Assembly (NCBI RefSeq): GCF_030409835.1
Contig: NZ_JAUFQO010000003.1
Location: 186,001-250,000 of the forward strand
Direction of reading: 5' to 3'
DNA from: Lutimonas halocynthiae
GTDB lineage: Bacteria > Bacteroidota > Bacteroidia > Flavobacteriales > Flavobacteriaceae
Length of the DNA: 64,000 nt
Below, piece after piece: positions 2,488-47,305 of this stretch (its first letter is position 1; each line of letters begins with the position of its first letter). Below the pieces are notes generated by a model, which had not been told where the DNA came from, ran no database searches, and saw nothing but the letters and a program-made list of their open reading frames with translations. A program made the translations under genes and the position numbers.

Positions 2488-4348
2488 CGTAGTTTTCTAT
2501 TTCAAGTTGTTTATTATACTCTTCTTCCAGACTTCCTTCAAACATTCTTTTTTCTAACCAGTCTCTTTTGACCTCTCCATTTAAATAACTTTCGATCATT
2601 AAACTTGCAATCGGGGCAGCCCATCTGGAACCCCAATAGCCATTTTCTACAAATACAGCTATCGCGATTTTCGGATTGTCTTTGGGGGCAAAAGCGATGA
2701 AAATTGAATGGTCGGTGAATTGAACCCTTTCGCCATTAATTCTTTTAAAATTTTCTGCTGTTCCTGTCTTTCCACAGATTTGAATACCGTCAATTTTTGA
2801 ACCTCTAGCCGTTCCAATTTCAAAAACATTGTACATTCCATCAATGACAGGTTCAAAATGTTGTGGATCAATAGTGGTATATTTTGGTTTGGTATATTTA
2901 ATGTCATTGTTGATGCTATCTCCAATTTTTTTGAGAATATGTGGGGTGTAATAATAGCCTCTGTTGGCTATGGCAGCTGTCATATTAGCCAGCTGAATCG
3001 GAGTAGTAAGCACCTCTCCCTGACCTATGGCATTTGATATTGTGGTAATTGCTTTCCATTGATGATTTGGATAATAGCGATTATAAAGACTTGAATCAGG
3101 GATTAAACCTTTTTGACCTGCTGGAAGATCGTAGCCCAGAAAATTACCTAAACCAAAGCTTTTTGCATGATTACTCCAAGTATCGATTCCTTTGGCAGGA
3201 GAGTCATATTTTTCAATTGTTCTTCTGTAAAGATTAGAGAAATAAGAATTGCACGATCGATAAATTCCTGTATTCATGCTAATGGGAGTTCCTACAATTC
3301 CACAGTGGCATTTCATGAATCCTCCTCGACCGTATTTATAGCCGTGATAACAAGAAAATCCGGTTGTTGGGGTCACTACATCCTCTTGTAAAGCAATCAG
3401 GGCGTTAATGATCTTAAAAGGAGAGCCTGGAGGGTATTGTGCTTGCAAGCCTCTATCGAGCATTGGTTTCTTTACGGAATCATTAAAAAGCAAATAAGAG
3501 TTTTTAGATCTTTTTCTCCCTACAAGCATCTTAGGGTCGTAACTAGGAGTTGACACAAGAGATAATATTTCACCAGTGGATGGTTCAATCGCAACAATAC
3601 CGCCTCTTTTGTTCGACATTAATTTTTCTGCATACATCTGGAGTGCCATATCAAGTGTGAGCGTGATATCTTTTCCGGGAATTGCAAGCGTGTCATATAA
3701 GCCATCCTTGTAGGCGCCAATTTCTTTGTTAAAACGATTTTTTTGAATAAAGCTTACACCTTTTTTACCTCGTAATACTTTTTCGTATTGTTTTTCAATC
3801 CCCTGATAACCAACTAATTCACCTAGTTGATAATCGGTATTCTTTTTTAGCAATCCTTCATTGACTTCACTTATATATCCGAGAACATTGGCGCTTGTGT
3901 TTTCAGGGTATTGACGGAGGAATCTTTTTTGAATGAAAAAACCTTTGTATTTATACATTCTTTCCTGTAAATAGGCATAGTCTTCTTTTGAAACCTGTCC
4001 TACAAAAATAGAGGGAATTCTAGGGGAATAATTTTTGGTTCTATGATAACGTTTTAAAAACTCTTCTTTTGTTATTCTAAGTAATCCACAGAATTCTAAA
4101 GTGTCTAGAGGTTCTACGTCTCTTGGAATGATCATGATATCATATGAACTTTGATTGGCTACCAATAACTTACCATTGCGATCATATATAAACCCTCTGT
4201 CAGGGTAAGCAAATTTTGTTGTGACCGCTGAATTATTTAAAGGGTTCTGACGGTATTTGGAATCAACTACTTGTATAAAGAATAACCTGCCAATAAAAAT
4301 GGCGCCTACTGTAAGAATCAAAAAATATAACAGTGAATTTCTTGGCAT
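2468..4348 (-). CDS. mrdA: Penicillin-binding protein 2, elongation transpeptidase
   Basis: Monofunctional class B PBP that cross-links the peptidoglycan made by RodA. It has 626 residues: an N-terminal membrane anchor (about 5-25), a dimerisation/pedestal region with RGFIYDRNG (51-59), and a transpeptidase domain with SPFK (309-312, nucleophile Ser309), SCN (365-367) and KTGT (527-530). Between the first two catalytic motifs lies a Cys/His cluster (C333, H335, C347, H348, C349), in the region where E. coli PBP2 holds a structural zinc. The gene starts 3 bp after mreD and overlaps rodA by 20 nt. Confidence 0.96.
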   Translation of the reverse strand: MPRNSLLYFLILTVGAIFIGRLFFIQVVDSKYRQNPLNNSAVTTKFAYPDRGFIYDRNGKLLVANQSSYDIMIIPRDVEPLDTLEFCGLLRITKEEFLKRYHRTKNYSPRIPSIFVGQVSKEDYAYLQERMYKYKGFFIQKRFLRQYPENTSANVLGYISEVNEGLLKKNTDYQLGELVGYQGIEKQYEKVLRGKKGVSFIQKNRFNKEIGAYKDGLYDTLAIPGKDITLTLDMALQMYAEKLMSNKRGGIVAIEPSTGEILSLVSTPSYDPKMLVGRKRSKNSYLLFNDSVKKPMLDRGLQAQYPPGSPFKIINALIALQEDVVTPTTGFSCYHGYKYGRGGFMKCHCGIVGTPISMNTGIYRSCNSYFSNLYRRTIEKYDSPAKGIDTWSNHAKSFGLGNFLGYDLPAGQKGLIPDSSLYNRYYPNHQWKAITTISNAIGQGEVLTTPIQLANMTAAIANRGYYYTPHILKKIGDSINNDIKYTKPKYTTIDPQHFEPVIDGMYNVFEIGTARGSKIDGIQICGKTGTAENFKRINGERVQFTDHSIFIAFAPKDNPKIAIAVFVENGYWGSRWAAPIASLMIESYLNGEVKRDWLEKRMFEGSLEEEYNKQLEIENYVAQKEE

Positions 4349-26194: not shown

Positions 26195-26209
26195 AAATGT
26201 TTAAATTTT

Positions 26210-26260
26210 TAGGTTCTCGACCTAAGTTATTAATATTATATTTCTACTTTCTCGAAGTAG
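26210..26260 (-). promoter_or_regulatory. Twin-hairpin leader of rpsP
   Basis: Two small inverted repeats lie in the 5' UTR: CTACTT...AAGTAG (26244-26260) and TAGGT...ACCTA (26210-26224). Both present the same loop sequence, TCGAGAA on the minus strand. Duplicate hairpins with one loop motif upstream of a ribosomal protein gene suggest autoregulation by S16. From memory, a bS16 leader has been predicted in flavobacteria; not verified here. Confidence 0.6.
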
Positions 26261-42094: not shown

Positions 42095-42529
42095 ATGTTA
42101 CAAAGAATTCAAAGTGTTTACATATTCATTGCCATTTTATTAGCTTGGCTGGTAGCTTTTTTGGTCCCTTTTTGGATAGACCAAAATAGCGAGGTGATTT
42201 ATTTGAATTCCCTGTTTAAAAATAATGAATTGTTATATGTGACTATTCCATTTCTTTTTATAGGATCTGGAATTATATCTTTTATATCTTTATTATCATT
42301 CAAAAATAGAACAAGACAAATTATAAGCAATAGAGTCAATATTGTAATAAACTTTTTATTGTTAGGAATTATTGTATACCATTTACTAAGCTTACCTGGA
42401 GAGACTGTTGTTTCTGAGAAGGGTATTGGGGTTTTCATACCTTTATTAGTAATTGTTTTTTTGGTACTAACCAACAAGGCAATTATTAAGGATGATAAAC
42501 TTGTAAAATCTGTAGACCGGTTACGATAA
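42095..42529 (+). CDS. DUF4293 family membrane protein
   Basis: 144 residues with four predicted membrane helices. It begins MLQRIQSVYIFIAILLAWLV and ends LTNKAIIKDDKLVKSVDRLR; both ends are hallmarks of DUF4293, a Bacteroidota-specific family often near rho. An ATG at 42008 would add 29 residues but lies upstream of the -7 box, so 42095 is used. Function unknown. A strong terminator follows. Confidence 0.88.
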   Translation: MLQRIQSVYIFIAILLAWLVAFLVPFWIDQNSEVIYLNSLFKNNELLYVTIPFLFIGSGIISFISLLSFKNRTRQIISNRVNIVINFLLLGIIVYHLLSLPGETVVSEKGIGVFIPLLVIVFLVLTNKAIIKDDKLVKSVDRLR

Positions 42530-42557
42530 GACTAATACCTTAGTTATAGTGTGTAAC

Positions 42558-42591
42558 GGCTGTCTAAATTTAATTTAGACAGCCTTTTTTT
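42558..42591 (+). terminator. Terminator of the DUF4293 gene
   Basis: GGCTGTCTAAATT and AATTTAGACAGCC pair perfectly (tight loop) and are followed by seven T. Confidence 0.9.
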
Positions 42592-42734
42592 ATGCCTATT
42601 GTTTTCTAACGGTTTTTGGGTAATTTTCAAAATCCCAAGTTCCTCTATTGTGAGAACCGTGATGTGTATGTATGTTTGTAGTGTAATTATTCAAGTAATA
42701 GTTACTGTTATGAAAAAACAGCCTTTGAAAAAAG
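42592..42734. other. Left edge of the 1.7-kb gene-free region
   Basis: No gene supported. A 79-codon open frame (42599-42838) has no family likeness and runs into the repeat array. AT-rich, with no clear promoter. Confidence 0.5.
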
Positions 42735-43930
42735 GTATAAGGGGGGAAAGGAGAGAAGAGTCTTTCACTTCAAAGAAGAAAAGAGCTTCTCTCCTTATTA
42801 TAACTCCTAGGATAAATTGCTATGAATTCCTAAAATGACATTTTGAAAATCAAATTTCTCTTAAAGAGATGTGCTTGCGAACGTTTTGTTCTTAAGTATA
42901 TATAATATACTCCGGTTGTATAACAGCACGGAGCAGAAGAAAGGGGAGAAAGGAGAGAAGTGAAGCGCATTGATTCTGTCATTACTATTAGAACAAATTG
43001 CTTCTCTCCTTACTATTTTCAGAAAGTGGGAAAATTGCTATACATTCCAAAATTGACATAAAGACATCAAATTTCTCAACGAAATGATCATGTAAATGCA
43101 AATTTACATAAAAGCCACTCCGAATTTTATTTGGAGAAGAAGAAAGGGGAGAAAGGAGAGAAGCGAAGCACATTGTTTTCTATTATATTAAATAATACAT
43201 TTAGCTTTTCTCCTTACTATTTTTAATAAAATAGACCTTTCAATTATTAGCTTTAAGATTGTTTTCATGAAATTATCCTGATCGGTTAAATTATCCAGGT
43301 CAAATCAAATACTCCAAACATTTAGGAGAAGAAGAGAGGGGAGAAAGGAGAGAAGTGAAGCATATTGTTTTCTAATAAAATGATTAATAAATAACTTCTC
43401 TCCTTACTATTTTAAATTAAAACCACTACTTCGGCAACATGTAGGTCTATTTGAGAAGAAATTATCTGGATTTGTAAAACCTAGATCATACCATATACTC
43501 CAGGAAAATTGGAGAAGAAGAAAGGGGAGAAAGGAGAGAAGTGAAGCACATTGTTTTCTAATAAAACGAATAATAAATAACTTCTCTCCTTACTATTTTA
43601 AATTAATATTCCGCTTTCAATAAAGTTTAAGAATAAATTATCTGGATCTTTGCAAAAAAAAGATCACACCATATACTCCAAAAATATAGGAGATGAAGAA
43701 AGGGGAGAAAGGAGAGAAGTGAAGCACATTGTTTTCTAATAAATTGAATAATAAATAGCTTCTCTCCTTACTATTTTTTCGAACAAAAAAAATACTCAAA
43801 TCTTAAAAATTTGAGTATTTCTTAAGAAGAATCTTTAGGGTTCTTCTTTTAAAGGGGAAAAAGGAAAGGGAGTTAGGAGAGAAGTGAAACAAGTTTTTAA
43901 TAAACAAATAACTTCTCTCCTTACTATAAA
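42735..43930 (+). repeat. Seven-unit array of purine-rich hairpin repeats (possible structured RNA)
   Basis: Each unit has GGAGAGAAG paired with CTTCTCTCC. Left/right arms: 42750-42758/42786-42794; 42952-42960/43001-43009; 43155-43163/43205-43213; 43347-43355/43395-43403; 43533-43541/43581-43589; 43711-43719/43759-43767; 43876-43884/43912-43920. Left-arm spacing is 202, 203, 192, 186, 178 and 165 bp. Unit 3 has one C-to-T change in the right arm that keeps pairing as G-U. Units 2-6 begin with ACTCC...GGAG (a small hairpin) and a polypurine tract with AGAAAGGAG; most end with TTACTATTTT. Cores are nearly identical while the sequence between them has diverged, which argues for selection on the core. 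No protein-coding capacity is shared. Drawn on the plus strand because the T-rich tail follows the stem on that strand. Confidence 0.8.
43791..43819. terminator. Strong hairpin between array units 6 and 7
   Basis: AATACTCAAAT and ATTTGAGTATT form a perfect 11-bp stem. The A-run to its left gives a T-run on the minus strand, so it looks like a terminator for leftward transcription. A second stem, AAGAAGAA/TTCTTCTT (43824-43848), follows. Confidence 0.6.
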
Positions 43931-44208
43931 ATATTTCAACTATTGAAATTAAATTCAAGTGTTAACGAAGATGCAAGATAGAAAAAGAATTTGAATTATT
44001 CAAAAATAAATTTCACAACGATAATTGGTTGTTTGCATAAATTGCTTAAGACTAAAGAGTTACATTAAAAAATATAGATAAAAAATGCAATAAAAAGAAG
44101 AGAAAAACATAATAATAGATTTTTTATATCTTTCAAACATCGAATTAGCGGTTTTTGGGTAGATATCTAGTAGTTTCTGGGTATATCAAAAAATACCTGA
44201 TTTCGCTA
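43931..44208. other. Right edge of the gene-free region
   Basis: AT-rich, nothing recognisable until the promoter at 44209. Confidence 0.5.
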
Positions 44209-44239
44209 TTGGATTATACCCTTTTAGCCGATACATTTG
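44209..44239 (+). promoter_or_regulatory. Promoter of the small secreted protein gene
   Basis: TTG (44209-44211), 20 bp and TACATTTG (44232-44239), a near-perfect match to the Bacteroidota consensus. Leader of about 55 nt before the ATG at 44302. Confidence 0.75.
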
Positions 44240-44301
44240 GTGTGTTAGCTTATATGAGCTGATATACAATACATACAAAACAAATCTAAAAGTTTATTAT
44301 T

Positions 44302-44709
44302 ATGAAAAATTTTACTATTGCAATTGCCGTATTGTTGGTTATGGCTTCTTTTACTACCAACTTAACTAACTCATCCTCAACTGTTTTGTCAGATTTCGAA
44401 GGAACTCTATTAGAGTCAGCTCCTGTTATGGAAAATAACAATGGAGACGTAACTGTTACATTTACTGTTGATGAGAATGTACTTGTTTCTTCTGCATTGA
44501 TTGGATCTTCAAATGAGATTTTTCTAGTGGAAAACGGTGACTCTGAATCATTAAAAACAGTGACATTAGATCTTCAACCTGTAAACGGTATGGTGAAGAC
44601 AGCGTTTAACAATATTTACGAAAGTAATTATGATGTTGCTGCTATGGATGCTTTATTAAATGCTAGCGAACCAGAAAAAAGACCAAAAGGTGCTATCATC
44701 TGGGACTAG
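44302..44709 (+). CDS. Small secreted protein, function unknown
   Basis: 135 residues with a signal peptide (MKNFTIAIAVLLVMASFTTN) and no lipobox. The mature part is acidic, rich in Val, Asn and Ser, with likely beta strands (GDVTVTFTVDENVLVSSALI, LKTVTLDLQPV), and ends EKRPKGAIIWD. No Cys. I do not recognise a family. It has the best promoter in the region and a strong terminator, so it should be well expressed. It lies between the hairpin array and the sensor kinase/regulator pair, so it may be a target or an input of that system; that is inference from position only. Confidence 0.7.
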   Translation: MKNFTIAIAVLLVMASFTTNLTNSSSTVLSDFEGTLLESAPVMENNNGDVTVTFTVDENVLVSSALIGSSNEIFLVENGDSESLKTVTLDLQPVNGMVKTAFNNIYESNYDVAAMDALLNASEPEKRPKGAIIWD

Positions 44710-44826: not shown

Positions 44827-45486
44827 ATGGATAGAAAAATTACAGTTCATATTGCTGATGACCATCAAATCTTGATAGATGGCGTTAAAGCGGTGCTTAA
44901 GATTGAACCTAATATCGAGGTAATAGGTTATTCTCTCAATGGAATGGAAGTGGTTTCATGGTTTAAGGAGAATGAAGCAGATGTGCTGATATTGGATATC
45001 AATATGCCAGAATTAGATGGTATTGAGGTGTTAAAGAGGTTAAAGGATTTCAAGAAACGACCGGAAATTATCGTTCTTTCAAGCTATGACGACGTCAAGC
45101 TGGTAAAAGAAGTCCTTCAAATGGGTGCCAAAGGATTTGTTCCTAAAAAATCTGCTGGTGAACATATAGTTAATGCAGTGAATAAGGTTTCTGAAGGGAA
45201 TCAGTATTTTACAGATGACGTCAAAGAAAAAATGATGCAGACCTTACTTAACGGTCAAGTTAAGAATGAAGGAAGCCAAGATGGCGTTTTAATAAGTTCA
45301 CTTACAAAACGTGAAGTACAAGTTCTTAAGCTTGTTGCTCAACAATACAGTACACGTGAGATTGGTGATGAGTTACATATTAGCGAAAGCACTGTTGAAA
45401 CGCATCGTAAAAATCTTATGAAAAAGGTAAAGGTTAAGAATAGTGTTGGACTTGCTATATTTGCCTTAAAAAATGAGGTCATTTAA
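44827..45486 (+). CDS. LuxR/NarL-type response regulator
   Basis: 219 residues. The receiver domain (1-120) has the acidic pair in HIADDHQ, the phosphoacceptor Asp57 in LILDINMPELDG, and the conserved Lys in GFVPKKSAG. The C-terminal LuxR helix-turn-helix has LTKREVQVLKLVAQQYSTRE and HISESTVETHRKNLMKKV. The ATG at 44827 gives a clean receiver start; a TTG at 44803 is less likely. It overlaps the sensor kinase gene by 14 nt, so the two are a matched pair. Confidence 0.93.
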   Translation: MDRKITVHIADDHQILIDGVKAVLKIEPNIEVIGYSLNGMEVVSWFKENEADVLILDINMPELDGIEVLKRLKDFKKRPEIIVLSSYDDVKLVKEVLQMGAKGFVPKKSAGEHIVNAVNKVSEGNQYFTDDVKEKMMQTLLNGQVKNEGSQDGVLISSLTKREVQVLKLVAQQYSTREIGDELHISESTVETHRKNLMKKVKVKNSVGLAIFALKNEVI

Positions 45487-47305
45487 CCCTAGATCATATT
45501 GTAGTTTGAAACATTTAAGGATCTTCTTTCTTAGTATTTTTTTGTTGTTTTCAGGAGTTTTGATGAGCCAGAAAATCAGTCAGGAAGAATCTTATGTCAA
45601 AAACAAACTGGCGCAAATCGATTCATTGATTAATATAGGTCAGCATGAAAAGGCAAATTCCCTTATTAATAATACCATCAATACATTCTCATTTAGAAAA
45701 AATTCAGAGGAACAATTGGCCTTTGATTTTAGAATAGCTAAAAATTTATACTATCAGGGCAATAAGGAAAAAGGACTCAATGAGATGTTAGTTGGCCTTG
45801 ATAAGTTAAAAAGCAAGCCTTTTTCTCCTCTTAATATAGATTATTCCAACGAGTTGGCAAAAATATTTGCAGATTCAGAGAACTTCGAAAAAGCAATTTA
45901 TTATAATAAAATAGCACTTCAAAAATCTTACTTGATTAAAGATACTATTGGTATAACAAGGTCTTTGATTCGTATGGGAGGATTTTATTATGCCAAAAAT
46001 GAGGAGGATAGTGCCAAAATCTATTTTAAAAAAATGGCTCGTTTTCCGGTAACTCCATTAACAGAAAAAAGAATTGGAGATGCTTATAATAATTTAGGCG
46101 TTATAGCCCAAAACAATGAAAACTATGATTTGGCAAAGGCTCGTGGAAGACAAGCATTAGAATTAAAAACAAGACTTAATGATGTAAAAGGAATAGCTTA
46201 TTCTAATGTGAATCTTGGTAATTTATATCATTATGAGAATGATTATAAAACGGCTATTGGGAATTACCTGGCGGCATTTAAGCAAATAGAAAATGATACA
46301 ACAAGAAGCTTACTTTATTTGAAAAGAATTATTTATGAGAATTTATCTGTTTCCTATGATTCGATAAAAGACTATGAGAACGCCTACAAATATTTGCATA
46401 AATCATATCAATTAAAATTCAAGTTAACTAATGAGCAATTAGCTGAGAACAATGCAGAGGTTGAAGCCAGGTATAATCTGGCCGTCGAAGAAAGAAAAAC
46501 AGAAGAGGAGAAGAGTAAGGCGTTAAGAGCTCAATTTTTATTTTATGGCTTGGCTTTTGTTACCCTCACCTTTGTAATTCTGGCTTTCATTTTCTACAAG
46601 AACTACAAGTTAAAAGAACAAAACAGGCTAGAACAGGTGCATAATAATCTACAGACCAGAATTATTAATGCCACGATAGATGCAAAGGAGAAGGAACGCA
46701 AATCTATTGCCGAGATTCTTCATGACAGTGTTAGTGCACTCTTATCTTCAGCAAATTTACATTTGCAAGCATCTAAGGCGCAGTTAAACTCGCATGTACC
46801 CATAGAGATAACGAAGGCACAAGAAATTGTTAATGAGGCTTCTGTTAAGATTAGAGACCTTTCTCATGAACTCATCTCATCAGTTTTATTGAAGTTTGGT
46901 CTTGCCTTTGCAGTGCATGATCTTTGTGAAAAATATTCCAATTCTGAAATCCAATTTATTAGTGATGATAATGGTATAAAGAGATATAATCAGCAATTTG
47001 AGATAAAAATTTACAATATTATTGAAGAATTGATCAATAATATTATGAAGCATAGTGGTGCAAAGAATGCATCGATCAATCTTATTGAAAGAAATGGTGA
47101 AAAATTACTGATCCAGATAATAGATGACGGTAAAGGTTTTGAGCTCAAAAAAGCGAGAAAAAAGGATGGTTTAGGTTTGAGTCATATCGAAGCTCGAATC
47201 AAAATTATGAAAGGGGTTTTCAACATCAACACCAAGAGGGGTGAAGGAACCAGCATTTTTATTTCAGTTCCAATTTACCAACCCGAACTCTCTGAAGCCG
47301 TTTAA
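45473..47305 (+). CDS. TPR-containing sensor histidine kinase (HisKA_3/NarX type)
   Basis: 610 residues. Signal peptide (about 14-32), periplasmic tetratricopeptide-like repeats (about 40-330: GDAYNNLGVIAQNNENYDLA, IAYSNVNLGNLYHYENDYKT and similar), one membrane helix (about 360-377), a coiled linker, the H-box ILHDSVSALL with His417, and a HATPase domain (NNIMKHSGAKNA, DDGKGF, GLGLSHIEARI, GEGTSIFI). This is the usual flavobacterial two-component layout in which TPRs sense a periplasmic ligand. Partner: the overlapping LuxR-type regulator. Confidence 0.93.
   Translation: MRSFNPRSYCSLKHLRIFFLSIFLLFSGVLMSQKISQEESYVKNKLAQIDSLINIGQHEKANSLINNTINTFSFRKNSEEQLAFDFRIAKNLYYQGNKEKGLNEMLVGLDKLKSKPFSPLNIDYSNELAKIFADSENFEKAIYYNKIALQKSYLIKDTIGITRSLIRMGGFYYAKNEEDSAKIYFKKMARFPVTPLTEKRIGDAYNNLGVIAQNNENYDLAKARGRQALELKTRLNDVKGIAYSNVNLGNLYHYENDYKTAIGNYLAAFKQIENDTTRSLLYLKRIIYENLSVSYDSIKDYENAYKYLHKSYQLKFKLTNEQLAENNAEVEARYNLAVEERKTEEEKSKALRAQFLFYGLAFVTLTFVILAFIFYKNYKLKEQNRLEQVHNNLQTRIINATIDAKEKERKSIAEILHDSVSALLSSANLHLQASKAQLNSHVPIEITKAQEIVNEASVKIRDLSHELISSVLLKFGLAFAVHDLCEKYSNSEIQFISDDNGIKRYNQQFEIKIYNIIEELINNIMKHSGAKNASINLIERNGEKLLIQIIDDGKGFELKKARKKDGLGLSHIEARIKIMKGVFNINTKRGEGTSIFISVPIYQPELSEAV

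Follow-up and report, generated by a model that had tools for sequence, protein, structure and literature searches.

In this study, a tandem array of seven hairpin units was analysed in a 64,000-nucleotide (nt) stretch of Lutimonas halocynthiae DNA (the window). We believe that the array element is a structured RNA of the plus strand, a conclusion that is well supported by sequence comparison; the conservation of the RNA structure, the conservation of the promoter, and the linkage to a two-component system are supported on the same basis. Tentatively, we favour the reading that the region encodes one noncoding RNA, which would be induced by the two-component system and would titrate a partner as a multi-hairpin decoy. 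The gene-free interval that holds the array spans 42530-44301 (1.77 kb), between a DUF4293 gene and a gene for a small protein, and it contains two open reading frames (ORFs) of at least 60 amino acids (aa) (79 and 61 aa), both of which lie over the repeats.

Structure and sequence of the hairpin units

The left arm of the units reads AAGGAGAGAAG, with TAGGAGAGAAG instead in unit 7, and the left arms start at 42748, 42950, 43153, 43345, 43531, 43709, and 43874. The spacings of 202, 203, 192, 186, 178, and 165 bp claimed in an earlier sequence-only reading of this DNA were reproduced exactly from these starts, and its arm pairing was also recovered: the left arm stands opposite CTTCTCTCC in each unit, and unit 3, which reads CTTTTCTCC, retains a G-U pair. 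The array is non-random when its inverted-repeat pattern is compared with shuffles. The pattern GGAGAGAAG-N20..50-CTTCTCTCC had six exact matches in the window versus 0.00 in 100 shuffles, and unit 3 escapes it because of a C-to-T change. In the 3.99-Mb genome, AAAGGAGAGAAG matched seven times, six of them inside the array. After folding against shuffles, six of the seven units had z scores from -2.80 to -4.19, and the fold of unit 2 was weak (z -1.26, equalled by 24 of 200 shuffles).

A nearly identical core of about 100 bp had been proposed for units 2-6. This holds for units 4-6, which are 84-100% alike over 129 nt, but it was overstated for units 2 and 3: unit 3 reaches 62% over 129 nt, and in units 2-3 the left 46 nt are 91-100% alike and the right 41 nt 66-68%. 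The proposed resemblance between spacers was found as well, since the spacers following units 1 and 2 have GGAAnAAATTGCTATnnATTCC in common and those following units 4 and 5 are alike. A repeated element, GGAAnAAATTGCTATnnATTCCnAAAnTGACAT, whose ends are complementary, lies after units 1 and 2 (42814-42841 and 43032-43059), and stretches like it occur in congeners and in locus L141.

Two covariance models were used for comparison with relatives, R1 for the core (36 units) and R2 (103 units, 91 of them distinct). The typical unit consists, in order, of an upstream hairpin (H1) of variable sequence, a linker ending in GGGGAGA, a 13-pair stem, and a variable loop. The stem, AGaAAGGAGAGAAG:CTTYTCTCCTTaCT, is nearly fixed in sequence, with A opposite A in most units. 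Over the 91 distinct units, 97.9% of 1167 stem cells are paired, and GGGAGAAAGGAG is exact in 67 units. Among the stem variants, G-U cells outnumber A-C cells (69 versus 12, and 35 versus 12 minus the commonest column), which argues for a plus strand that works as RNA. The fold of H1 was matched by fewer than 5 of 100 mononucleotide shuffles in 39 of 86 flanks, with stems such as CCCC:GGGG. H1 often keeps its shape while its letters change, whereas the main stem and linker keep their letters; therefore, the purine string GGGGAGAAAGGAG seems to be read by sequence, and we speculated that each unit would display it for sequence-specific recognition. The suggestion that a structured element is under selection is thus supported by the homologues in three genera and by the conserved stem pairing.

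Distribution, promoter and neighbouring genes

The homologues were sought by DNA and covariance-model searches of flavobacterial genomes, the latter being the check that had been proposed for the array. A DNA search with the array gave matches in 15 of 60 genomes, 13 of them among 22 Lutimonas genomes (own genome included). The matches in G035 and G038 (38 and 50 nt) were rejected as non-members; neither arm was present at up to two substitutions. R1 was positive in 13 of the 22 Lutimonas genomes, including all six with a completeness of 90% or more and a contamination of 5% or less, and the nine misses were all at most 84% complete. Across 199 sampled genomes of the family, R1 was positive in four (own, G011, G162, and G189). 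The second genus is represented by one genome, G189, with units at the same locus as in Lutimonas, and in the third genus, that of G162, all 17 genomes had at least one match (G249 just one). R2, run with filters by which weak matches are missed, was positive at E values of 0.01 or less in 13 of 397 genomes of the family; six of these belong to the three genera, and seven matches were weak. The weak matches (L169-L175, E 3.3e-4 to 0.0084), each inspected over 400 nt and without a second unit, were rejected. L171 and L173 sit within ORFs, L173 having the purine string but no right arm, and the remaining five, all intergenic, are hairpin-like but differ in sequence. Among 80 DUF4293-gene loci from named records, five carry the RNA at E <0.001 and 75 are without it; in four of the latter (L044, L054, L059, and L086), a response-regulator-like ORF lies 155-234 nt after DUF4293.

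The copy number ranges from one to seven units per locus, with up to five in one third-genus stretch (L152). In the third genus, the locus with the order rho-DUF4293-small protein-regulator-kinase holds one unit in 6 of 6 genomes read, and arrays lie elsewhere; in G162, the array is placed between DUF4870 and miaE. L191-L193 have a single unit with the promoter and both arms. A mobile or viral repeat was also considered and rejected: the own genome has one array only, viral contigs gave 0 exact matches to the array, and plasmid matches were only 39-nt pieces in four Lactococcus records, while the third genus has two loci.

In 32 of 38 locus records, or 31 of 37 places given that L145 and L159 overlap, an exact promoter CTATTG-N20-TAnnTTTG lies 47-85 nt upstream of unit one of the locus. 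By group, it was present in 11 of 12 Lutimonas records, in G189, and in the third genus in 17 of 19 records from searches and 3 of 6 at the original locus. Of the six records that lack it, three open at a contig start that leaves 73-110 nt ahead of the unit, and the other three are L194-L196. Passages of a study on Flavobacterium psychrophilum give TAnnTTTG as the sigma-A -7 consensus (PMC9723704). The conservation of this promoter points to transcription. A strict scan of 42501-44320 with TTG-N17..23-TAnnTTTG gave only the promoters before unit 1 and before the downstream gene, and a relaxed scan added 42599 and 43173. A wider promoter pattern, which was derived from these same promoters, had two matches in the 64-kb window (array and small-protein gene; 0.00 expected). 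H1, the promoter, and the second promoter copy had been absent from the sequence-only reading. In six genomes at up to three mismatches, it had 21 matches versus 3 for the reversed control. At up to two mismatches, there were 3 in G000, 2 in G011, and 3 in G013, with 0 for the control, and two of the sites in each genome are those of the array and the small-protein gene. A few further matches precede other genes; in L216 (G256:C9:52484-52533), the motif with 3 mismatches stands before another small secreted-like protein, which is present as two tandem near-identical ORFs.

The partly palindromic box upstream of the promoter (Table 1) has a partial repeat at 44146-44161, and its right part falls in the wider pattern match; it is probably an activator site. 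The terminator-like hairpin after DUF4293 is the sole site of its kind in 42500-44310 (0.6 expected by chance), and congeners have a hairpin with a T-run at the same place with changed stem letters. Because this hairpin precedes the promoter, the array RNA would not be simply the 3' untranslated region of DUF4293. An array of intrinsic terminators or terminated small RNAs was rejected, as TTTT stands near the stem in 41 of 89 units only. Right after unit 7, a small hairpin, ATTTCAACTATTGAAAT, lies at 43928-43960 without a T-run; it occurs in several congeners too and is possibly a processing or end signal.

As far as each locus reaches, the gene order in Lutimonas is rho-DUF4293-RNA-small protein-LuxR regulator-kinase. 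G189 has the same order until its contig stops at the regulator, and the third genus has it in 6 of 6 loci read, with the regulator and kinase domains confirmed in L191 and assigned by homology or place in the others. In G189, as in 12 of 12 Lutimonas loci, an exact core promoter precedes the small-protein gene. The protein itself carries a conserved D[IYF][ED]GTLL motif and precedes the response regulator in three genera; its relatives are found in L191-L196 and L141, and the L191 and L141 members also belong to no Pfam family. Elsewhere in the window, Rfam gave a match to the S16-Flavobacteria ribosomal protein leader at 26200-26234 on the minus strand.

Table 1. Features of the array region and the genes downstream (window positions).
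Feature	Position	Strand	Evidence or remark
Terminator-like hairpin after DUF4293	42558..42584	+	12-bp stem and T-run
Partly palindromic box GGTTTTTGGGTAATTTTCAAAATCCC upstream of promoter	42607..42644	+	Similar in congeners
Promoter, CTATTG (-33) - 20 nt - TATGTTTG (-7)	42645..42678	+	Putative start near 42684
Hairpin unit 1, variant left flank GGGGGGAAAGGAG	42742..42801	+	R1 45.3 bits; z -4.19
Hairpin H1 before unit 2	42910..42933	+	0/100 shuffles fold as well
Hairpin unit 2	42944..43016	+	R1 74.2 bits
Hairpin H1 before unit 3	43118..43136	+	1/100 shuffles fold as well
Hairpin unit 3, G-U variant CTTTTCTCC	43147..43220	+	R1 78.2 bits
Hairpin H1 before unit 4, weak alone	43312..43328	+	14/100 shuffles fold as well
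Hairpin unit 4	43339..43410	+	R1 90.2 bits
Hairpin H1 before unit 5	43498..43514	+	4/100 shuffles fold as well
Hairpin unit 5	43525..43596	+	R1 88.1 bits
Hairpin H1 before unit 6, weak alone	43676..43692	+	9/100 shuffles fold as well
Hairpin unit 6	43703..43774	+	R1 88.5 bits
Hairpin AATACTCAAA../..TTTGAGTATT before unit 7	43787..43823	+	Present in congeners with altered stem letters
Hairpin unit 7, terminal type, left flank GGGAGTTAGGAG	43868..43927	+	R1 75.2 bits; usual last unit of congeners
Second promoter-motif copy, before small-protein gene	44190..44239	+	1 mismatch
Small protein, 135 aa	44302..44709	+	N-terminal signal-like stretch (by eye); no Pfam family
LuxR-type response regulator, candidate activator	44827..45486	+	Response_reg and GerE domains
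TPR histidine kinase, candidate sensor	45473..47305	+	TPR_12, HisKA_3, HATPase_c

Proposed decoy function and rival explanations

We speculated that one RNA of about 1.25 kb would be transcribed from its own sigma-A type promoter, with a start near 42684 and a 3' end past 43927. The neighbouring kinase and LuxR-type regulator would switch on this RNA, and in Lutimonas the promoter box common to both would let them switch on the small secreted-like protein as well. The RNA would then titrate a partner, which may be an RNA-binding protein, pyrimidine-rich RNAs, or the free 16S 3' tail, in a logic like that of BarA/UvrY-CsrB. The layout suggests a titrating RNA because it combines one promoter, many equal sites, a variable copy number, and a two-component neighbour, and a variable unit number is as expected where binding-site dosage matters. 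Among the alternatives offered by the sequence-only reading, one multi-site transcript is favoured by the strict promoter scan and by the limitation of T-runs to 41 of 89 units, and the DNA-binding array is disfavoured by variants that keep G-U over A-C. In the window, the complement CTCCTTTCTCCCC was found only on the minus strand of the array (7 matches at up to two mismatches), no genome-wide antisense-target search having been made.

The results speak partly for and partly against the decoy reading. Covariation of the stem is present but modest: both sides change in 4 of 13 pairs, which 17 of 500 shuffles reach, and the 11 double-change cells over the 91 distinct units and the score of 0.116 (shuffled mean 0.099; slid versions 0.030-0.062) were each reached by 0 of 500 shuffles. 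A structure slid by +3 still gives 3 pairs and 9 double-change cells, and inside Lutimonas alone the covariation was no higher than in shuffles. Because the alignment of the units (A3) was fitted to the structure, and because the units of one genome are paralogues, so that counts over units are non-independent, we regard the covariation as support, short of proof. One contribution is the last unit of two related genomes, where the stem is GGAAGAG:CTCTTCC, probably through a single event. Against the reading, H1 was non-significant in 47 of 86 flanks and is missing before several first units. No family member was found beyond the three genera among the 397 family genomes, so any role would be lineage-specific. 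The small-protein gene of the third genus lacks the promoter (0 of 6 exact and 1 of 6 with 2 substitutions), and its co-regulation with the array is therefore not general. At the original locus, the L194-L196 copies have neither the promoter pattern nor the usual right arm. Finally, transcription, control by the adjacent regulator, titration, and the partner are steps that we infer.

The L194-L196 units, near 3138, 2699, and 2779 in the orientation read, keep GGGGAGAAAGGAG with a changed right arm, and L194 and L195 fold by an alternative outer stem of GAGAAAAGAAA and its complement. They may be decayed copies or copies that need the purine string alone.

The array might instead encode sibling small RNAs, its transcript being cut or terminated into 80-100-nt units that pair with mRNAs. 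The units are alike and have the size of small RNAs, TTTT follows the stem closely in 41 of 89, and sibling small RNAs are a known theme (PMC4211561). However, no strict promoter match and one relaxed match (43173) lie between the units, TTTT is lacking in 48 of 89 units, terminal ones among them, and the conserved string is partly inside a stable stem, and the loops vary. We consider this explanation unlikely.

A specific form of the sponge model is that AGAAAGGAG pairs with the free anti-Shine-Dalgarno tail CUCCUUUCU of 16S rRNA, in competition with rpsU mRNA, and acts on ribosomes with an unsequestered tail, for example those lacking bS21. The 16S 3' end was taken from the congener G011, where it reads GGAACACCTCCTTTCT; the own assembly yielded no 16S gene in a search that recovered it from 9 of 14 known genomes used as the control. 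The predicted duplex with this tail has -13.5 to -13.8 kcal/mol in units 1-6 and -10.0 in unit 7, and 80 of 91 units retain the A opposite A, which the stem does not require. Ribosomes of F. johnsoniae without bS21 favour strong Shine-Dalgarno sequences, according to passages of PMC9976891. On the other hand, the real tail was equalled in pairing by 184 of 2000 permuted tails, and 68 of 12794 window stretches (array included) reach -13 kcal/mol, so purine richness alone could explain the pairing. Terminal units do not keep AGAAAGGAG, the purine string is partly locked in the stem, and the conserved GGGG is left unexplained by the 16S tail. Because permuted tails equal the real one and GGGG is unexplained, we give this form a low probability, below that of sibling small RNAs.

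The extended Shine-Dalgarno sequence of rpsU in Flavobacteriales is likewise a purine string complementary to the 16S tail, and its predicted duplex has -19.6 to -19.9 kcal/mol in 7 of 7 genomes. The array differs from it in pairing about 6 kcal/mol more weakly, in having many copies, partly in stems, and in having no conserved start codon after the string. GTG follows the string in some units only, and unit 3 and others, such as L124:1497-1569 and L144:108-183, read GCG. A candidate reading as hidden short peptides, starting at GTG after AAGGAG, was therefore discarded, as the start codon is not conserved. With still more doubt, we also considered that a Csr-like module arose independently in Bacteroidota, with a two-component system inducing a multi-hairpin RNA, and that the purine strings of this RNA titrate bS21-lacking ribosomes with a free 16S tail. 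If true, this module would couple an outside signal to a specialised-ribosome switch governing rpsU.

The array could also belong to the downstream gene for the small secreted-like protein, as its long 5' leader or a cis element, since it lies on the same strand, directly upstream, with no other likely gene between. But in 12 of 12 Lutimonas loci a separate promoter motif for that gene lies past the array, and the array of G162 lies away from the small-protein gene, which makes a leader quite improbable. Near-invariant inverted arms every 165-203 bp would suit a set of protein-binding sites in the DNA itself, as inverted repeats with long spacers, an explanation that is very improbable in view of the variation that keeps G-U (69 versus 12 A-C), the varying spacings, and the placement of the units of a locus on one strand behind a promoter. 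Neutral tandem duplication homogenised by gene conversion, which would fit the flanks common to units 4-6, is hardly credible when cores are conserved over three genera with different spacers and single-unit loci keep the promoter and both arms (L191-L193).

Comparison with known systems and significance

The best-known decoy RNAs with multiple sites are those of CsrA in Gammaproteobacteria, where UvrY is a LuxR-type regulator. To our knowledge, Bacteroidota mostly lack CsrA. Like the decoys CsrB, CsrC, and RsmZ with their repeated GGA motifs, the array has seven hairpins with GGAG repeats, in what would be a single transcript, and GGA occurs 26 times on the plus strand of 42679-43960 and 18 times on the other strand. 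The array also adjoins a two-component pair with a LuxR-type regulator, and BarA-UvrY drives csrB and csrC in the passages of PMC7652899. In contrast, CsrB motifs (CAGGAnG) lie in hairpin loops or other single strands, whereas in the array GGAGA is part of the linker and of a stem whose own sequence is fixed. A CsrB-type placement of GGA in loops was therefore rejected: the conserved AAGGAGAG is in the stem, the loops are variable, and only GGGGAGA is in the linker.

The purine string could act like the sponge RNA CrfA and SisA-D of Caulobacter, but no SisA-D-type small RNAs are known for the organism of the array. CrfA is not known to be built as such an array of hairpins. No match at or above the gathering threshold of Rfam 15 was found in 42530-44300, CsrB/RsmZ-type models included, and at permissive E values (up to 10) there were 36 sub-threshold matches, 20 of them to microRNA families. 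Passages of Weinberg 2010 (PMC2864571) describe pan and STAXI as tandem short structured motifs and Flavo-1 and 6S-flavo as motifs of Bacteroidota. Compared by these passages, pan and STAXI resemble the array as short structured elements in tandem and differ in context; Flavo-1 and 6S-flavo are structured Bacteroidota RNAs as well, but are not among the 36 matches to the region. The titles and abstract openings on flavobacterial or Lutimonas small RNAs gave no account of a tandem hairpin array, which does not in itself show its absence from print.

In this study, three flavobacterial genera were found to carry a structured RNA family that has no Rfam 15 match, that varies in copy number, and that has a promoter of its own and recurrent linkage to a two-component system. 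It makes testable the question of whether the free Bacteroidota 16S tail has any user besides rpsU. If the RNA is a decoy, it would be a second such design, in Bacteroidota, which would mean that this architecture evolves repeatedly, and it would lead to a new binding partner.
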